Positions 8,117-17,157 of a stretch of DNA of 64,000 bases are shown one piece after another. The position numbers were made by a program, and so were the translations under genes. The notes under the pieces were generated by a model. It was not told where the DNA came from, searched no databases, and was given only the letters and a program-made list of their open reading frames with translations. The DNA comes from Clostridia bacterium (GTDB lineage Bacteria; Bacillota; Clostridia; Oscillospirales; Acutalibacteraceae). The stretch's first letter is position 1, and the number at the start of each line of letters is the position of its first letter. The DNA lies in NCBI GenBank assembly GCA_017428625.1, contig JAFRQM010000049.1, forward strand, positions 1 to 64,000, read 5' to 3'.

Positions 8117-8920
8117 TTATATTTCGATAATATCTCCGCATGAAATATAGTGAATATTTTTGTGTCTGTCGCTCAGATATTTAAAAGCCTTTTTGCCCGT
8201 GCAGTGGCAGGTGTAAAATTCAACATCGCCGTAATCATCAAGTAATTCAGACAACTGTTCAAGTTGCCGGACAGAAACGGTTTTTCGGTTAACGGGGTTA
8301 TAAACATGAAAACCGCCTATGCAGTATGCCGGCTTGTTGCCGCAAACACTTTCAAGAATACTTACCACTCCCGAATGACCGCAGCCTGTAATGAGAACAT
8401 CTTTATCAGATCTGATAATCAGATTCTGCTCATGTCTGAAATTATCAGGGCTTTTACCTGCCAGCAGAGCGCTGTTCGCTTCCGAACGAAATCTGTCTTT
8501 AACCTTCGAAACAAACAACTCAATTTCATCATCTATACTGTAATCGCCGTCAAGCAGAACAATATTCGGGTTATTCTTTAATCCTGCATCAAGCCCAATG
8601 TTAATTCTGAAAAACAGCGCCCTTGAATAATGAGGTTCAAATGCGCTCTTTTGTATATAGACTTTTGCCGATTTATTCCTGTTCAGAAACTCTTTCAGAG
8701 CTCCGCCGTGGTCAAAATGACCGTGTGAAATAATAACCGTGTCCACTTTTTTGATGTCAATGTTTTTCTTTTCGGCATTTTTAAAAACCGTATTGTCAGG
8801 GCCTAAATCAAAAAGTATTTTATGGTTCGGTGTTTCTATATAAAATGACAGTCCGTGAACCGCTTTGAAATCTCCGCTTGATATGTTTTCAACCAGGGCG
8901 GTTATTCTCAAATCACTCAT
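8117..8920 (-). CDS. MBL-fold metallo-hydrolase (COG1237-like)
   Basis: Metal-dependent hydrolase of the beta-lactamase superfamily. The HGHFDH metal motif is near residues 66-71 and further ligands are in GCGHSG and CHCTG, a pattern of the COG1237 group that includes the MptA-like pterin enzymes. The substrate is unknown. The gene overlaps the 3' end of the SCIFF maturase gene, so translation is probably coupled. The start is uncertain. ATG 8920 gives an 8-base overlap, and an in-frame TTG at 8932 gives 20. Neither has an ideally spaced ribosome site. Confidence 0.75.
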   Translation of the reverse strand: MSDLRITALVENISSGDFKAVHGLSFYIETPNHKILFDLGPDNTVFKNAEKKNIDIKKVDTVIISHGHFDHGGALKEFLNRNKSAKVYIQKSAFEPHYSRALFFRINIGLDAGLKNNPNIVLLDGDYSIDDEIELFVSKVKDRFRSEANSALLAGKSPDNFRHEQNLIIRSDKDVLITGCGHSGVVSILESVCGNKPAYCIGGFHVYNPVNRKTVSVRQLEQLSELLDDYGDVEFYTCHCTGKKAFKYLSDRHKNIHYISCGDIIEI

Positions 8921-10286
8921 CTTCCTTTGCAACTTCCATCATTATCGCGCATTCCATGCGCTTTTTGAAAAGTTCACATCCGTATTTGTAAACGCCGTTT
9001 ATGCTGCCGGTCGCATGGTATGAGTTAGCGGCGCAGCCGCCCGAACAGTAAAGCCTTGCCCAGCAGTTTTTGCATTCTTCCCGTGAATAAACATTGCAGG
9101 CGGCGAATTGCGAACGGATATTTTCGTTTGTGACGCCTTCAAAAACATTTCCCATAAGGTAGTTCTTATCGCCCACAAACTGGTGGCAGGGGTAAAGGTC
9201 GCCCGACGGCGTTACCGCCATGTATTCCGTGCCCGAACCGCAGCCCGAAATGCGCTTGTAAATGCAGGGGCCGGCTTTTAAATCAATCATATAATGGTAG
9301 AAGGTGAAGCCGTTGCCCGCTTTTCTGCGCTTTATCATTTCTTTTGCGAGAATTTCATATTGTTCAAGCAGAACAGGCAAATCATTTTCGGTCAGAGCAT
9401 AGGGCTCACCGGGTTTGCAAACAACAGGCTCCATTGACAGTTCGGTAAATCCGAGGTCTGCCATATGAAAAATATCATTTGTAAAATCTGTGTTTGCGTG
9501 CGTAAAAGTGCCGCGCATATAATAACCTTTGCCGTTTCTTGCCTCAACAAGTTTTTTGAATTTAGGCAAAATCAAATCGTATGAGCCGCCGCCTGAAGGG
9601 GTCGGGCGTTTTGAGTCGTGTATTTCTTTGCGCCCGTCAAGCGACAGCACAACATTGTGACATTCCCTGTTGCAGAAATCAATCACATCGTCGTCAATCA
9701 GAACGCCGTTTGTGGTGAGAGTGAAACGGAAATTTTTTCCGTGCTCTTTCTCAATACTTCTTGCGTATTCGACAAGTCGTTTGACAACATCGAAATTCAT
9801 CAAAGGTTCGCCGCCGAAAAAGTCAACCTCAAGGTTGGTTCTCGTGCCTGAAGCGGCAACAAGAAAATCGAGAGCTTTTTTGCCAACCTCAAAACTCATA
9901 AGCGCGCTCTTGCCATGATATTTGCCCTGAGCCGCAAAGCAGTATTCACAGTTCAGGTTGCAGGCGTGCGAAACATGAAGGCACAGCGCCTTGACAACAG
10001 GATTGCGCATTTTAAGGTTAAACGCCTGTCCTTCATATATATCCTTTGTAAAAAGCTTCTTTTCATCACTGAGGGTCTGAATGTCATCAAGCAAATCATT
10101 TATTTCTTCACTTGTAACATCGGGCTTGTCTGAATATTTCTGAAGCAATGCTTTTGTTATTTCATCACGTGAATTGTTTTCAAACATTGAAATAGCGTCA
10201 TACGCCACATCATCCACGCTGTGAACGGCGCCCGAAGCCGTGTCTATAACAATGTTGTATCCGTTTAATTTATATTGATGAATCAT
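8913..10286 (-). CDS. SCIFF peptide radical-SAM thioether maturase
   Basis: Radical SAM enzyme that installs sulfur-to-carbon thioether cross-links in the SCIFF precursor peptide, giving a ranthipeptide. The N-terminal ~80 residues form a peptide-recognition domain (RRE-like). The SAM cluster motif is C109-x3-C113-x2-C116, followed by GGEP. The C-terminal SPASM region carries many cysteines (CGSGTEY, CHQF, CKNCWARLYCSGGC) that bind two auxiliary [4Fe-4S] clusters. Length (457) and order match the CteB-type family. The SCIFF peptide gene lies 67 bases upstream with an attenuator between them. Confidence 0.95.
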   Translation of the reverse strand: MIHQYKLNGYNIVIDTASGAVHSVDDVAYDAISMFENNSRDEITKALLQKYSDKPDVTSEEINDLLDDIQTLSDEKKLFTKDIYEGQAFNLKMRNPVVKALCLHVSHACNLNCEYCFAAQGKYHGKSALMSFEVGKKALDFLVAASGTRTNLEVDFFGGEPLMNFDVVKRLVEYARSIEKEHGKNFRFTLTTNGVLIDDDVIDFCNRECHNVVLSLDGRKEIHDSKRPTPSGGGSYDLILPKFKKLVEARNGKGYYMRGTFTHANTDFTNDIFHMADLGFTELSMEPVVCKPGEPYALTENDLPVLLEQYEILAKEMIKRRKAGNGFTFYHYMIDLKAGPCIYKRISGCGSGTEYMAVTPSGDLYPCHQFVGDKNYLMGNVFEGVTNENIRSQFAACNVYSREECKNCWARLYCSGGCAANSYHATGSINGVYKYGCELFKKRMECAIMMEVAKEDE

Positions 10287-10353: not shown

Positions 10354-10506
10354 TCAGTTCTTGTTTTCACATTTCTGGTTTGCTACGCCGCAGGAGGTTT
10401 TGCAAGCCGACTGGCAGGAAGTCTGGCATTCGCCGCAACCGCCTTTTACCGCACTTTTTGAAAGGTCGCGGGTTTCAATGGTTTTTATTCTGTTTGTCTT
10501 TTTCAT
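10354..10506 (-). CDS. SCIFF ranthipeptide precursor (six cysteines in forty-five)
   Basis: Fifty-residue ribosomal peptide precursor. The leader contains the family-typical TIETRDLSKSA segment. The core carries six cysteines at 24, 27, 31, 35, 39 and 46 (GGCGEC, TSC, SAC, TSC, QKC), the pattern that gives the family its name. ATG 10506 is preceded by AAGGAG with six to seven bases spacing. The longer open frame to 10554 has no support. The adjacent maturase would cross-link the Cys residues to partner residues between them. SCIFF peptides are near universal in Clostridia, and a signalling role has been proposed for some. Confidence 0.96.
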   Translation of the reverse strand: MKKTNRIKTIETRDLSKSAVKGGCGECQTSCQSACKTSCGVANQKCENKN

Positions 10507-10530
10507 AACGGACTCCTTAATTATAGAATT

Positions 10531-10544
10531 GTGAGTTTTCTCAC
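10531..10544. promoter_or_regulatory. Small inverted repeat in the SCIFF leader
   Basis: GTGAG, TTTT, CTCAC lies between the -10 box and the ribosome site of the SCIFF gene. It could be an operator or an mRNA hairpin. Its function is not shown by sequence. Confidence 0.4.
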
Positions 10545-10558
10545 TGATTAACAAATTT

Positions 10559-10587: not shown

Positions 10588-11988
10588 TCAAATGCAGACC
10601 TTTACATCTGAAATATTGTCCGTGCCCGCCGTAATGCATTTTGTTCCTGATTCTTCAAGGCTTTTTATGCACTGAATAACATCTTGCGTAAATATTTCTC
10701 CGGGGGCGATTATGGGTATTCCGGGCGGATAAGCATAAATATACTGCATTGATATTCTGCCTTTTGAGCGGTCAAAAGAAATATATTCTCCTTCCGATTT
10801 CATTGCGTCATATAAACTCATTCTGATTTCCGGCGCAGGGTATTTGATGCGTGATAAATCAGAATAGTTATCATTTTTTTCAAGGTTATTGTCTATCCTG
10901 ATAAGCGCGTCTGCAAGGCGTTGCAGAGAATTTTCATCATCGCAAACCGATGTTATGCAAATCACATAACTGCCGTATGCGGCCTCAACCTCGATTTTGT
11001 ATTCATCTCTCAATTCGGCGGCAAGTTCATTGCCCGTTATTCCGGCGTGAATACCCGAAACAACAATTCTGCCCTCGTCATAATCAAAGCAGTTTTCCGC
11101 TGTATTTTTTGTAAAGACTTCAAGCTTTTTCAGTTTTTTTGTTTTTTCATAAAAACGGTCAAGCGCTTTCCTGTATTGCGGAAAGATTTTATCCCTTTCA
11201 TTTTCTGTCAGGTTTACACATCTGTCAATTGAAGCCAGCAGAACATAAGAAGGGGAGGATGTCTCAAAAATATCAAGCGCTGTTTCAATGTCGTTATATA
11301 ATTGTTTTTCCTTTACATACAGAACAGCGGTCTGAGTCAAAGCCGGCATTGTCTTGTGCAGCGATTCCGCAACTGCGTCCGCGCCTTGTGACAGGCTGTC
11401 GGAGGCAAACCCTTCATAATAACCGAGGTGAGCGCCGTGAGCGGAATCAACAAAGAGTTTTGCGCCGTGGCGGTGAACAATACCGCTGATTTCTTTAATG
11501 TCGCTGATAACACCCTCATATGTGGGCGATGTTATAACCACAAGTTTCGTTTCCGGGTTTTCTTTCAGCGCGGTTTCAACGATTTCGGGCGTAATGCTCA
11601 GAAAAAAACCGTTTATATCCGTTTCGGGATATATGTATCGAACATTGAGGTTGCGAATTTCACAGGCGTGGTAAACCGCTTTGTGACAGCCCCGCGCAAT
11701 TACCGCGGTATCTCCGGGCTTCGCAAGCGTGTAAACGGCGGCAAGAATACCGAGCGTTGAGCCGCCCACAAGCGGAAACGCACAGCCGGCATTTCGCAGA
11801 GCCGCGCAACGTCCGGCGAGTTCTTTCAGAATACCCTGTCTGTTATGCAGGTTATCAAAACCGTCAATTTCGGTTATGTCAATTCCGAAAGGCAGAACAT
11901 CGCCAACAGGGCGCCTTTTGTGCCCGGGCATATGCATCGGCAGAACACCGTCTGCGGAGTATTCAAGCAGTTTATCATAAAGTGACAT
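10588..11988 (-). CDS. Orn/Lys/Arg decarboxylase family PLP enzyme
   Basis: Fold-type I PLP-dependent decarboxylase that would release CO2 from arginine, lysine or ornithine to give agmatine, cadaverine or putrescine. Conserved features include MHMPGHKR near 18, DSAHGAHLG (181-189) with the PLP-binding Asp, and the Schiff-base lysine K212 in SLHKTMPALTQ. At 466 residues it is the short Bacillus SpeA/YaaO type rather than the long enterobacterial form. The exact substrate cannot be read from sequence. It follows pflA after only one base and so joins the pfl operon. A polyamine importer (pot) is at the far end of the window. Confidence 0.85.
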   Translation of the reverse strand: MSLYDKLLEYSADGVLPMHMPGHKRRPVGDVLPFGIDITEIDGFDNLHNRQGILKELAGRCAALRNAGCAFPLVGGSTLGILAAVYTLAKPGDTAVIARGCHKAVYHACEIRNLNVRYIYPETDINGFFLSITPEIVETALKENPETKLVVITSPTYEGVISDIKEISGIVHRHGAKLFVDSAHGAHLGYYEGFASDSLSQGADAVAESLHKTMPALTQTAVLYVKEKQLYNDIETALDIFETSSPSYVLLASIDRCVNLTENERDKIFPQYRKALDRFYEKTKKLKKLEVFTKNTAENCFDYDEGRIVVSGIHAGITGNELAAELRDEYKIEVEAAYGSYVICITSVCDDENSLQRLADALIRIDNNLEKNDNYSDLSRIKYPAPEIRMSLYDAMKSEGEYISFDRSKGRISMQYIYAYPPGIPIIAPGEIFTQDVIQCIKSLEESGTKCITAGTDNISDVKVCI

Positions 11989-11989
11989 T

Positions 11990-12715
11990 TTATCCCTCTT
12001 TAACTTTCAGGGTTTCATTGAGATGTTTTTGCAGTTCGTCAAGTTTTTCCGCTTCGAGCGCAGGAGTGCCGGCAAGCGGATTTCTGATTTTCAGGTTGTC
12101 ATACTTGAAAAAACCCATCGTGTGAAATGCAAGCAATTCGTATTTTTCAAACTTCAACCCGTTTTCGGAAACATATCCTGCATATTTCTCAACATCTTCA
12201 TTTGTATCGTTGATTCCGGGCGCAATGACGGTTCTGAGAACAAGCCGTTTGCCTTTTTCGGTGCAGTATCTGCCGAGAGCGAGCGGCTTTTCAATGTCTC
12301 CGCCCGTGTATAGCTTATACTTCCCCGCGTCGTAAAATTTAATGTCGAGAATAATCATATCCGCGTTGTCAACAGCACGTTTTACCCCGTCCGTCAGTTC
12401 AACGCTTCCCGATGTGTCAATGCAGTAACCGATATCCTCATTTTTAAGCAAATCGAACATTTCATTTATAAAAACACTGTTGAGCAACGGCTCACCGCCC
12501 GAAAATGTCACTCCTCCGCCGTTTCTGAAATACGGCTTGAATCTGCGGATTTTATTGAAAACCTCTTCTGCCGTCATCTCATTTCCGGAGCGGAACCAAG
12601 TGTCGGGGTTGTGGCAGTAAGCGCACCTCAGAGGGCAACCCGTGAAAAACACCGCGTAGCGTATTCCCTCACCGTCAAGAGCGGCAAAGGATTCAAAAGA
12701 ATGAATGTCAGCCAT
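11990..12715 (-). CDS. pflA: Pyruvate formate-lyase activating enzyme
   Basis: Radical SAM enzyme that generates the glycyl radical on PflB. The cluster motif C27-x3-C31-x2-C34 lies in TGCPLRCAYCHN, followed by SGGEPLL. Length is about 241 residues against 246 in E. coli. I start at ATG 12715, one base after the pflB stop (TGATATG), which implies translational coupling. The longer frame to 12745 runs into pflB and adds residues without family support. Confidence 0.93.
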   Translation of the reverse strand: MADIHSFESFAALDGEGIRYAVFFTGCPLRCAYCHNPDTWFRSGNEMTAEEVFNKIRRFKPYFRNGGGVTFSGGEPLLNSVFINEMFDLLKNEDIGYCIDTSGSVELTDGVKRAVDNADMIILDIKFYDAGKYKLYTGGDIEKPLALGRYCTEKGKRLVLRTVIAPGINDTNEDVEKYAGYVSENGLKFEKYELLAFHTMGFFKYDNLKIRNPLAGTPALEAEKLDELQKHLNETLKVKEG

Positions 12716-12716
12716 A

Positions 12717-14960
12717 TCACATCGCGTGGTGGAAGGTTCGCGCAATAACCTCCTCCTGCTTGTCTCTCGTCAGTTTGTTAAAGTTGACCGCGTAACCCGA
12801 AACCCTGATTGTCAGCGAAGGGTAAAGCGTCGGGTCGTTCATGGCGGCAACAAGTTTTTCTCTGTTAAGAACATTCACATTAAGGTGGTGGGCATCCTGA
12901 AGAAAATAGCCGTCAAGCATTGCTACAAGGTGTTCGATTCTGTCATCCTCGCTTTTACCAAGAGCGTCGGGAGTAATTGAAAATGTGTTTGAAATGCCGT
13001 CTCTGCAGCAGGCATAATCAAGTTTTGCAACAGAGTTCAGCGACGCAAGCGCTCCTTCGGCGTCTCTGCCGTGCATCGGGTTCGCGCCGGGAGCGAAAGG
13101 TTCGCCCGCTTTGCGCCCGTCCGGCGTTGAGCCTGTTTTTCTGCCATACATAACATTTGATGTGATGGTGAGAATCGAAAGGGTGTGCTTCGCTCCTCTG
13201 TAAGCGGGAGTTTTGCACAGTTCACGGTAGAAATACTCTATAAGGTCCTTGCCGATTAAATCAACTCTGTCATCATCGTTGCCGTATTTCGGGAAATTGC
13301 CTTTTATCTCAAAATCGGTAATAAGACCGCGCTCATCTCTTACAGGGTAAACCTTTGCGTATTTGATTGCCGAAAGCGAGTCAACGGCTACCGAAAAACC
13401 TGAAACGCCGAACGCCATAAGCCTTTCAACATCCGTGTCGTGAAGTGACATCATAAGCCTCTCATAGGCGTATTTGTCGTGCATATAGTGAATGATGTTC
13501 ATTGTGTTCACATAGAGTTTTGCGAGCCATTTCAGATAGTTTTTGTATTCGGTATAAACCTTGTCAAAGTCAAGAACCTCGTCGCCGAAAACAACTCCCT
13601 CAGGCGCTATCTGGTCGCCCGCGATTTCATCTTTTCCGCCGTTGAGGGTCATAAGCAGAATCTTCGCGAGGTTGCATCTCGCACCGAAAAACTGCATCTG
13701 TTTACCCATTTTCATGGCGGAAACACAGCAGGCGATGGCGTAGTCGTCGCCATACATCCTTCTCATAAGGTCATCATTTTCATATTGAATAGAATCGGTG
13801 TCAATACTTACCTTCGCGCAGAATTTCTTGAAGTTTTCAGGCAGTCTCTCCGACCACAGAACCGTAATGTTCGGCTCAGCCGATGAACCGAGATTATAAA
13901 GAGTGTTAAGAACGCGGTAACTTGTTTTTGAAACCATGTGTTTGCCTTCGTTGGTAACGCCCGCAAGGGCAAGTGTAACCCATACCGGGTCGCCTGCAAA
14001 AAGGTCGTTATACTCGGGCGTTCTGAGGTGACGCACAAGGCGGAGTTTGATAACAAGGTCATCTATAAGTTCCTGCGCCTTTTGCTCGGTTAATGTGTCT
14101 TCTTTAATATCTCTTTCAATATATATATCCATAAATTCGGCTATTCTGCCGATGGAGTTTGCGGCGCCGTTCTGCTCTTTGACAGCGCCCAGATAGCCGA
14201 AATAAAGCCACTGAATTGCCTCAAAAGCGTTTGCAGCGGGCTTGGAGATGTCATAGCCGTAAAGCAGGGCGAGTTCTTTGAGCTGATACATAAACTCAAT
14301 CTGTTTCGCGAGATCTTCAAGCAGGTGTATTGTCTCGTCGTCAAGAAATTCCTTTTCGCCGAGTTTATCCTTGTCATATTTCTTTTTCTCAATAAGAAAA
14401 TCCATGCCGTAAAGCGCGATTCTGCGGTAATCGCCTATGATTCTTCCGCGTGCGTAAGCATCGGGCAAACCGGTTAAAATTCCCGCGTGGCGCGCCTTTT
14501 TCATGGTTTCGGTGTAAGCGCGGAATACGCCTGTGTTGTGGGTGGTTCTGTATGTGAACTCATCTTTTATTTTGTCGCTCATCTCATAGCCGTAGGCGTT
14601 GCAAGCCTTTACGGAACTGCGAATGCCGGCAAAGGGCGAAACGCCTCTTTTGAGCGGCTCATCGGTCTGAAGGCCGACAATTATATCGGTGTCCTTGTCA
14701 ACAACATAGCCGGCAGGGTGTGAAAGAATTGTTATAACCTTTGAAGTGTCAACATTGAGAACTCCGCCTTTTTCGTTCTCGGCGATGAGCAGTTCGTGAA
14801 CACGCTCCATTTCTTTTTTTGTTCTTTCCGTAGGACCTTCAAGAAACGATGAATCGCCGTTGTATGCGGTGTAGTTCATTTTGATGAAGTTTGAAACATT
14901 GATGTCGTCACACCATACACCTTTGTTAAAACTTCTCCACGCAATTCTGTTGTCGTTCAT
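12717..14960 (-). CDS. pflB: Formate C-acetyltransferase (pyruvate formate-lyase)
   Basis: Splits pyruvate with CoA into acetyl-CoA and formate using a glycyl radical. The catalytic Cys-Cys pair is in IACCVSAM near residues 410-411, and the radical glycine is in RVSGYAV near residue 722 of 747, matching the known enzyme in order and spacing. ATG 14960 follows AGGAG with good spacing. The 5' neighbour UPF0251 stops inside that ribosome site, so the two are probably coupled. The enzyme is oxygen-sensitive, in line with a strict anaerobe. Confidence 0.96.
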
Positions 14961-14962
14961 AT

Positions 14963-15322
14963 TTATTCTCCTTTCGGGCATCTTCCGCAGGTTTTACAGT
15001 CTTTTTTTCCGCAGTTTCCGCAGCACAGCGAACTGTATGGGCAAAGCGTCACATCTCCGCCGTGAATATTTATTGCCTTGCCGTGAACAATTGAATCGGC
15101 GATTTTGTTTCTCGCGCTTTCATAAATCGAAGCAACAGTCGAGCGGGCAACGCTCATCTGCTTTGCGCATTCTTCCTGCGTGTATTCAAGCGTGTCTATA
15201 AGCCTGAACGCCTCGTATTCATCAAACGCCAGTTCAACCGTATCGGCGTAATCGCCGTAGGGGCGGAAACCAATGTTGTGGGGATATGAACAAATAAATC
15301 TGCTCTTCCGGGGTCTTGCCAT
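14963..15322 (-). CDS. UPF0251 (DUF134) helix-turn-helix protein with Cys-rich tail
   Basis: Predicted DNA-binding protein. It begins MARPRK, has the conserved stretch with EAFRLIDTL, and carries a sigma-70 region 4-like helix-turn-helix at about 48-75 ([17 protein letters not shown]). The last 26 residues hold seven cysteines at 94, 100, 101, 104, 109, 112 and 115, likely to bind a metal or iron-sulfur cluster. It is the first gene of the pfl operon, two bases from pflB, behind a promoter overlapped by a perfect palindrome. A redox-sensing autoregulator of pfl is a natural guess, but this is inference. Confidence 0.85.
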
Positions 15323-15397
15323 ACCTTATCCTCCGAATTTGCGCAAAACCGTAACAAGATATTGTTATCCGGCTGCAAAATTTACTTTTACATATAC

Positions 15398-15425
15398 ATT
15401 ATATATCATTATTGACATATGTCAA
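15398..15425 (-). promoter_or_regulatory. Promoter of the UPF0251-pflBA operon
   Basis: On the minus strand TTGACA (15425-15420), 16-bp spacer, TATAAT (15403-15398). The -35 box lies inside the palindrome at 15409-15428. Confidence 0.78.
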
Positions 15426-15428
15426 TAA
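15409..15428. promoter_or_regulatory. 20-bp perfect palindrome, probable operator of the pfl operon
   Basis: TTATTGACATATGTCAATAA is a perfect dyad covering the -35 region of the pfl promoter. A protein bound here would block RNA polymerase. The core TTGAC-N4-GTCAA also resembles CRP/FNR-family sites. The linked UPF0251 protein is the leading candidate ligand. Confidence 0.75.
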
Positions 15429-15487: not shown

Positions 15488-15519
15488 AAAAACCTCCGCG
15501 GTTTTCCGCGGAGGTTTTT
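15488..15519 (-). terminator. Terminator after the LCAT-like gene
   Basis: Stem ACCTCCGCGG / CCGCGGAGGT (core arms 15493-15501 and 15506-15514) with TTTT loop, flanked by A and T runs, so it can work in both directions. Confidence 0.85.
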
Positions 15520-15531
15520 ATCAAACTGTTA

Positions 15532-17157
15532 TCAGTGACCCGCTCTCGGCTGAACGCCGAATATTTTTACAAGAACAGTGGTAAACACAAACAAAGGTCT
15601 GAAAATAACCTTAATCTTTCTTATCGGCGTGTTTGCGACTGTTTCGTTGAATTCATCGGATTTGCTTTTGTGAACCGTCGGGTCAAGAGGCACAAGGATT
15701 TTGTTTTCTTCGTCATAATAAAGGAACTGCGGGTATTTTTCATTTGTTTCAACAGTGGAGTTCCCGTCATTCGCTATAGCAAAAACAAGCCCGTTTACCG
15801 CGTCGGGGTTAACCTTGTGGTTTACATTTTTAACAAACCAGGTGGTGTCGGGGAACATACAGGTTGAAGCGTTTATTTTCCGGTCGGGAGAAAGATATTT
15901 TCCGTTGCCTTTTTCCGTTTCGTTTTTAATATACGCGTCGGTGAAATAGGTGTCGTTTCCGCAGCAGGTTGCCCCGATGCTTGCCGTTTCAACTTTAAGA
16001 AGTTGGTCCGACAGTGCGTCGCTGTCCTCAATAAGCGGCACAATTTGCTCGCCGTATTTGACTATTGATGAAATTTTTACGCCGTTTTCTGCTGCCTCTT
16101 CGAGAATATCTTCGGCGCGCGTCATAATATTATAATGGTATTTATCAATCTTTTTAATAAAGTTGGCATATTTTTCTTCTTCGCCTGCAAATACAACTTT
16201 TTTGGCGTCTTCATAGTATTTGTCTTCGCACATAGCCCAGTAGCCGGGGAAAGAGCCGAAACAATGTTTTAAAACTCTGGGTGTAATATAGTCGTAAATA
16301 TGCTGATAAGCGTTTGTGGTAACCCAGCAGAACATATCTAAACCGTATATATCAACAAGAATTTTGAGAATCTGGCGGATAAGGTCGTCCGTCAGCGTGA
16401 TGCTGTCATTGACTTTGTAGTTTATGCCCATATCATACTCATAAACAAAACGCTCCACGGATTCGCCGTTTACGCAAAGGTTGCCGCTGAACGCTTCCCC
16501 TATGGGAGTCATACCGAGCAGGGCGGAGTGGCTCAGAATCATATTGGAAATACGCTCGTCTTTATATAAATCATAATAAAGCACTTCATAACAGGCGCCG
16601 AGGCATCTGCCGTATAGCGCAACTTTTTCGCTGCCGGTAGCCTCAATAACGGTATCAATAAAGTCGTGCAGTCTTTCCATATTTTCATAAGGGTCAAGAC
16701 GCCAGTCGTAATTGAATCCCAGAGAATCCATATTTGCGTTTGGGCTGTTATATCTGCTCCTGAGCGATTCTTTTGAGTAAGCGGTGTATATACTTTCGGA
16801 GCCGTCTGTAGGTTCACCGTTTTCATCAAGCACCATGTCCTTGTATGCGTCAATAAGCAGTTCCGTAATTATATCGCACACTTCGGTCCAGTCCTGTGTG
16901 AACGACGCTCTTATTATTATGTTCGGGTCATCCAGAAAAGCGTGTTTTACTTTTTCAACATCAATGTTTGCCTCAATGCGTTCATAATGGCCGTCATCCT
17001 GCTTTATGCCGAGCGGCGTGTCTTCGCCGTAAATACATATTACCGGTATTCTGCTCGGGTAAGCCCCGGCATTGATTTTTGACAAATATGAAATGAATGG
17101 AGCAGTAAGTGCAAGAATAAGAATCAATGATACCGCTTTCCGTAAAGATTGTTTCAA
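15532..17157 (-). CDS. Exported LCAT-like alpha/beta-hydrolase with Cys at the nucleophile position
   Basis: Probable secreted or membrane-held lipase/acyltransferase-like protein. A signal or anchor helix covers about 8-26. The LCAT-type YDWR motif is at 150-153, and the nucleophile elbow is GRCLG at 183-187, with Cys185 where the usual GxSxG has Ser. A candidate catalytic His is in VKNVNHKVN in the C-terminal third, and the last ~25 residues are hydrophobic and basic, a possible second membrane segment. The start is TTG 17157 behind GGAGGTG. Whether the Cys variant is an active thiol hydrolase or a catalytically changed protein is unknown. The gene is alone between its promoter and terminator. 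Confidence 0.65.
   Translation of the reverse strand: MKQSLRKAVSLILILALTAPFISYLSKINAGAYPSRIPVICIYGEDTPLGIKQDDGHYERIEANIDVEKVKHAFLDDPNIIIRASFTQDWTEVCDIITELLIDAYKDMVLDENGEPTDGSESIYTAYSKESLRSRYNSPNANMDSLGFNYDWRLDPYENMERLHDFIDTVIEATGSEKVALYGRCLGACYEVLYYDLYKDERISNMILSHSALLGMTPIGEAFSGNLCVNGESVERFVYEYDMGINYKVNDSITLTDDLIRQILKILVDIYGLDMFCWVTTNAYQHIYDYITPRVLKHCFGSFPGYWAMCEDKYYEDAKKVVFAGEEEKYANFIKKIDKYHYNIMTRAEDILEEAAENGVKISSIVKYGEQIVPLIEDSDALSDQLLKVETASIGATCCGNDTYFTDAYIKNETEKGNGKYLSPDRKINASTCMFPDTTWFVKNVNHKVNPDAVNGLVFAIANDGNSTVETNEKYPQFLYYDEENKILVPLDPTVHKSKSDEFNETVANTPIRKIKVIFRPLFVFTTVLVKIFGVQPRAGH

Follow-up and report, generated by a model that had tools for sequence, protein, structure and literature searches.

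A candidate operator for UPF0251/DUF134 proteins upstream of iron-sulfur carrier genes and of a pyruvate formate-lyase operon in clostridia

Introduction

Regulators of the IscR type are small helix-turn-helix (HTH) proteins with few cysteines that sense Fe-S status and control their own Fe-S-assembly operon, and IscR itself is a member of the Rrf2 family. The site of FNR, another regulator to be considered here, has the form TTGAT-N4-ATCAA. Pyruvate formate-lyase (PFL) and PFL activase are oxygen-sensitive. In Clostridium pasteurianum, PFL was up to eightfold higher under iron limitation and more pyruvate:ferredoxin oxidoreductase (PFOR) was found under iron excess (PMC5395762). In its full form, the MrpORP protein of Desulfovibrio transfers clusters, and its Di-Nase (PF02579-type) domain harbors a [3Fe-4S] cluster (PMC6345978). 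Judging by the titles of cited works, the orp operons of this MrpORP/orange-protein system (PMC6345978, PMC3897727) depend in Desulfovibrio on sigma-54, IHF and a cognate regulator.

A literature search on the DUF134/UPF0251 family, with most subscription journals outside its scope, retrieved neither a function nor a DNA site for the family, and a search of the same scope on the motif, the regulon and pfl regulation retrieved no earlier report of the operator or regulon described below. Here we analyze the window, a stretch of 64,000 nucleotides from the contig JAFRQM010000049.1 of a Clostridia bacterium, which represents one group of gut bacteria in which a DUF134 gene and a palindrome precede the gene for PFL, a key fermentation enzyme.

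Results

The DUF134-pfl-pflA locus

The features of the locus, with window coordinates, are the following.

14963..15322, minus strand: UPF0251/DUF134 gene (PF02001), proposed regulator, 119 amino acids
12717..14960, minus strand: pfl, pyruvate formate-lyase (TIGR01255, above cut-off), ATG at 14960
11990..12715, minus strand: pflA, PFL-activating radical SAM enzyme (TIGR02493, 220.6 bits, just below the cut-off of 231.75), ATG at 12715
15409..15428, no strand assigned: 20-bp palindrome, proposed DUF134 operator, exact sequence TTATTGACATATGTCAATAA, extended consensus GTTATTGACATATGYCAATAAC
15420..15425, minus strand: -35 box TTGACA, within the palindrome, 12/12 match together with the -10 box, spacer of 16
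15398..15403, minus strand: -10 box TATAAT, kept in the footprint of the PFL-linked relatives

The window protein belongs to the UPF0251/DUF134 family, since it matched PF02001 along residues 2-91 with 78.6 bits (cut-off, 27), and the genome of the window encodes one DUF134 copy. Its tail carries exactly seven cysteines (C94, C100, C101, C104, C109, C112 and C115), which agrees with the earlier note on this DNA, where the first gene of the operon had been described as coding for an HTH protein with seven C-terminal cysteines; two further cysteines are C11 and C52. Because only 2 nt separate the DUF134 stop codon from the ATG of pfl, and 1 nt the pfl stop codon from the ATG of pflA, the gene arrangement makes it likely that the three genes form one operon. 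An Orn/Lys/Arg decarboxylase-like gene (10588-11988, minus strand) that may be part of the same operon is located downstream of pflA, and this order was also observed at loci L035, L036 and L040. Farther along the minus strand, a SCIFF maturase gene (8913-10286; TIGR03974, 764 bits) is adjacent to a short cysteine-rich ORF (10354-10554) whose product looks like a SCIFF peptide.

Upstream of DUF134-pfl-pflA, the minus-strand TTGACA and TATAAT hexamers, with their 16-bp spacer, match the sigma-70 consensus promoter at 12 of 12 positions. The TTGACA hexamer (15425-15420) lies inside the palindrome, and the view that the dyad includes the -35 box was thus correct. The dyad TTATTGACATATGTCAATAA occurred a single time in the window when up to 3 mismatches were allowed, and 0 times in 100 shuffles, and its core TTGACATATGTCAA was found as 1 exact copy in the 2.63-Mb genome. 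A perfect inverted repeat, AAAAACCTCCGCGG-TTTT-CCGCGGAGGTTTTT, is present just before the pfl promoter (15488-15519) and is likely the terminator of the gene at 15532-17157 (minus strand).

Association of the palindrome with DUF134 across genomes

A scan of genome contigs provided 80 DUF134 loci, selected for their resemblance to the window protein; they came from numerous clostridia and from a small number of further phyla. Within 350 nt upstream of these loci, TGACATATGTCA was present exactly at 23/80 and with at most 1 mismatch at 39/80, and the reversed TGACATATGTCA used as a control gave 0 hits in the same regions. Among all 12-base palindromes found upstream of the 80 loci, TGACATATGTCA ranked first, with 23 occurrences and a runner-up at 4. 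At many of the remaining loci the site was located ahead of the gene that opens the DUF134 operon.

To avoid the bias of this selection, the test was repeated in genomes drawn from the phylum. For counts across whole genomes the loose 12-base motif TGRCATATGYCA lacked specificity, and the 15-mer TTATTGRCATATGYC and the tandem pattern of sites were used instead. A DUF134 match was obtained in 208 of the 299 genomes drawn from the phylum, and the 15-mer was present in 74 of the 299, 73 of which encode DUF134 (Fisher p=1.5e-12). The tandem pattern occurred in 38 genomes of the sample, all 38 DUF134-positive, and its reversed control gave 1 hit. Among 99 closer relatives, the 15-mer was found in 12 genomes, with DUF134 encoded by 11 of the 12 and placed side by side with the site in 10.

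These independent cross-genome tests strongly support the link between UPF0251 and the palindrome that the earlier note had proposed. Palindromes at genes with no link to UPF0251, which that note had named as evidence against the pairing, were looked for, and the outcome did not contradict it: as indicated above, all but one of the site-bearing genomes of the phylum sample encode the protein, and most target genes of sites without an adjacent UPF0251 gene still belonged to the same set of iron-sulfur carriers. One 93% complete genome, G232, contains two sites, and no DUF134 was found in it even by a sensitive profile; these two sites (L263 and L264) precede DUF5320-NifX-MinD and Mrp genes.

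The palindrome at pfl genes

All 12 distinct PFL-linked DUF134 promoters retained a GTTATTGACATATGTCA-like block with at most small changes, and a TATAAT-like -10 box with the sole exception of L039; the remaining promoter DNA hardly aligned. Among the relatives of the window, the dyad was present at 8/8 DUF134-linked pfl genes, six times exactly and twice with one core change. The other 22 pfl genes inspected in these relatives showed neither an adjacent DUF134 gene (0/22) nor the dyad (0/22), and a palindrome tied to pfl itself was therefore rejected. The pfl operon is not the general target of the palindrome but a special case of one clade, and on this point the interpretation in the earlier note was not supported.

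The pfl genes of the DUF134-linked type were 87-100% identical to that of the window and those of the other type 63-67%, and within the window's genus a genome has either the one type or the other. Since DUF134 and the dyad sit only at the 87-100% type and not at the other 22 genes, DUF134-pfl-pflA looks, from gene order and identity, like a cassette standing in for another pfl, and the two types within the genus suggest replacement by a transferred cassette. A DUF134-pfl cassette whose PFL is 85% identical to that of the window was also observed at L039 (5001-7637), on a contig filed under a Planctomycetota bin (Thermoguttaceae), and it reflects either transfer or a mis-binned contig.

The PFL-linked DUF134 proteins formed one clade with a support of 100/97, albeit in a tree of no more than 125 columns. 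Five cysteines, C11, C52, C94, C101 and C104, were common to the sampled DUF134 group, the conservation of C52 being partly due to selection, as it lies within the stretch used for picking the loci. As would be expected of the ligands of a regulator that senses an Fe-S cluster, C11, C94, C101 and C104 were conserved at 98-100% in 79 members of the site-linked type; distant DUF134 proteins retained these cysteines less often. The PFL clade adds C100, C109 and C112 in all members and C115 in 83%. The Fe-S context of other DUF134 operons is missing in the genome of the window, because no PF02579 protein was found there.

Recognition helix, site and predicted structure

The relation between helix and site was analyzed with DUF134 genes found by profile alone. 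The site was present at 15/19 genes with a recognition helix that terminates in (I/V/M)Y and at 0/33 genes with a helix of the SRPTFFRII type (p=8.6e-10). The window protein, with an exact dyad and a helix of the type (A/S)R(S/T)T...IY, falls into the sub-group that pairs with GACATATGTC. Direct binding predicts such a covariation of helix and site, to which common descent contributes as a confounder. The members of a second DUF134 group (L115-L144) have the helix SRPTF..I(I/L), many of them with a zinc-ribbon-like CxxC...CPxC tail; the GACATATGTC site was absent from this group, and a search for another common palindrome upstream of DUF134 genes with an SR(P/G/Q/A)T helix yielded nothing above noise. 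Taken together, the genomic and helix data indicate that DUF134 very probably binds the inverted repeat GTTATTGACATATGYCAATAAC.

A different regulator, e.g. of the CRP/FNR type, could be envisaged as the binder of the dyad, with DUF134 merely a co-inherited neighbor, because TTGAC-N4-GTCAA resembles the layout of an FNR site and the G232 sites occur without DUF134. However, a search of the window's genome gave three weak matches and no CRP/FNR-type HTH that reached the cut-off of its family, which also speaks against the possibility, raised earlier, that such a regulator alone binds the palindrome; the site has GAC/GTC rather than GAT/ATC and does not qualify as a member of a CRP/FNR regulon. 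Moreover, the co-occurrence of site and DUF134 in 73/74 genomes also held for sites away from the DUF134 gene, the dyad was absent at pfl genes without DUF134, and the site tracked the DUF134 recognition helix. A CRP/FNR-type binder is thus very unlikely.

The AlphaFold2 model of DUF134 had a pLDDT of 82, with the HTH (residues ~33-80) at a pLDDT of ~90 and the cysteine tail at low confidence. Its best PDB matches, which included UPF0122 (1xsv), were mostly -35-binding sigma region 4 domains, with modest scores (highest Z, 6.6; lowest Foldseek E, 0.08), and a sequence search for solved DUF134 structures returned none. The window protein remained below the cut-offs of the Pfam sigma-70 region 4 families (20.2 versus 25.7 bits and 17.9 versus 24.1 bits). 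That the operator half-site equals the -35 consensus suggests that TTGACA recognition may have been kept.

The genes behind the site

A set of 94 independent sites, located by motif alone, was assembled together with the surrounding DNA. Most sites overlie a -35 box, and 75/94 were followed, at a spacing of 16-18 bp, by a -10 box with 5/6 matches or better, as against 0 and 5 sites at the control spacings. Within 1.6 kb downstream of these 75 well-formed sites, genes for DUF5320, NifX-like (PF02579), MinD/Mrp P-loop ATPase, NifU or DUF134 proteins were present in 65/75 cases, the other 10/75 lacking the expected genes; on the opposite side the same gene set was found at 5/75. Several targets were located away from the DUF134 gene, and DUF134-PF02579 domain fusions were detected at L068, L093 and L139. 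By analogy with MrpORP, a protein that transfers clusters and harbors a [3Fe-4S] cluster in its Di-Nase domain, the products of the regulon are best interpreted as Fe-S carriers. A well-formed site with a -10 box was also observed at L304 (~3950, reverse strand), 39 nt before a Fur-family gene, which is a possible link to iron control.

A second tandem copy of the site was located 32-42 bp, mostly 36-39 bp, downstream of the first one, with the -10 box in between. The dyad might in principle be no more than the -35 box of a strong promoter with an accidental symmetry, given the TTGACA within it and the TATAAT behind it. Nevertheless, the half outside TTGACA is kept across genera, positions +13 and +14, which were unused in the search, carried an A in 83% and 93%, respectively, of the 74 sites compared, and the second tandem copies lie off any -35 box. 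The conserved half outside the -35 box and the tandem copies led us to reject a chance symmetry or plain promoter, whose probability is negligible.

Near-consensus promoters and a second copy positioned beyond the -10 box lead us to infer repression, and from this layout DUF134 probably blocks RNA polymerase and thereby acts as the repressor of its own operon. The opposite role, that of an activator replacing or helping sigma at the -35 box, would agree with an HTH like sigma region 4 and a half-site equal to the -35 consensus, but the promoters already are near-consensus (12/12 here and a good -10 box at 75/94 sites), and a tandem copy downstream of the -10 box is a layout typical of repression. 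Activation is therefore quite unlikely.

Discussion

The explanation that we favor as a whole, and regard as rather likely, combines a DUF134 dimer, repression, a regulon of Fe-S carriers and pfl, and sensing by cysteines. UPF0251/DUF134 would be a stand-alone transcription factor, probably dimeric, with a sigma-region-4-like HTH, and GTTATTGACATATGYCAATAAC would in effect consist of two back-to-back TTGACA elements. The operator would overlie the -35 box of near-consensus promoters, with a second copy 32-42 bp downstream in most relatives, and in most clostridia the regulated genes would be those of Fe-S carriers (Mrp/MinD ATPases, NifX-like, DUF5320 and NifU proteins). In the clade of the window, the regulator would have been recruited, apparently once, to the control of pfl-pflA. 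The cysteines C11, C94, C101 and C104, to which the PFL clade adds C100, C109, C112 and, in most members, C115, may hold a metal or an Fe-S cluster, and a metal or Fe-S sensor built on them is plausible from their conservation. Such a cluster or metal would report Fe-S or iron status, and its loss would free the promoter. Points that weigh against this explanation are the G232 sites, the common descent behind the covariation of helix and site, the 10/75 well-formed sites that lack the expected genes, the modest fold scores and low-confidence tail of the model, and the missing PF02579 protein in the genome of the window.

Because the operons encode Fe-S carriers, Fe-S or iron status would be the natural signal. 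When iron is short, PFL would be made in place of the iron-rich pyruvate:ferredoxin oxidoreductase, and iron sparing makes sense for pfl because the PFL of C. pasteurianum rises under iron limitation (PMC5395762). That a metal or Fe-S cluster held by the cysteines is sensed and that PFL serves as an iron-sparing switch is nonetheless a tentative proposal, to which we give somewhat less than even weight. A redox switch was suggested as well, in which an oxygen-labile cluster on DUF134 makes DNA binding oxygen-dependent and PFL is made only when it is able to survive. The conserved cysteines, with four extra ones in the PFL-linked clade, the oxygen sensitivity of PFL and its activase, and hosts that are anaerobes would fit such a switch; however, the main regulon comprises Fe-S carriers rather than oxygen-sensitive enzymes as such, and the PFL of one clostridium responds to iron (PMC5395762), and a redox switch appears rather unlikely. 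The regulon and the iron response of a clostridial PFL point to iron or Fe-S status at least as much as to oxygen, which makes iron sparing no worse an explanation than oxygen sensing. In its fullest form, the proposal would be that DUF134 is a sensor of iron or Fe-S status derived from a -35-recognition domain of sigma, acting as the Mrp/NifX repressor in anaerobes and as an iron-sparing PFL switch in one clade, a reading that is possible but still more tentative.

With these results, a widespread domain of unknown function gains a specific candidate site on DNA and a consistent group of genes, and its role becomes testable. If the proposal is true, the Mrp/NifX Fe-S-carrier genes of anaerobes gain a regulator, where the literature searched names none for clostridia, and the pfl case offers an example of a regulator that moved onto central fermentation, at pfl, with cysteines added.

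As to the described systems, the window protein is a UPF0251/DUF134 (PF02001) member above the curated cut-off that differs by belonging to a PFL-linked clade with additional cysteines. Unlike the Desulfovibrio MrpORP/orange-protein operons, whose control, by the titles of the works mentioned above, is not by DUF134, the carrier operons considered here would be under this regulator. DUF134 may share its predicted HTH fold with sigma region 4 and with stand-alone sigma-4-like HTH proteins such as UPF0122, and its half-site equals the -35 consensus TTGACA, but it differs from sigma region 4 by lacking the other sigma regions and by an inverted-repeat site and a cysteine-rich tail. As a cysteine-bearing HTH regulator of its own Fe-S operon, DUF134 would work like IscR, from which it differs in family, in that its cluster is only putative and in that its genes are Mrp/NifX/DUF5320 and not Isc or Suf. 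An autoregulated HTH protein acting on a -35 box is of a known kind; what is new, within the literature searched, is the operator proposed for DUF134, together with the regulon and the recruitment of this regulator to pfl.
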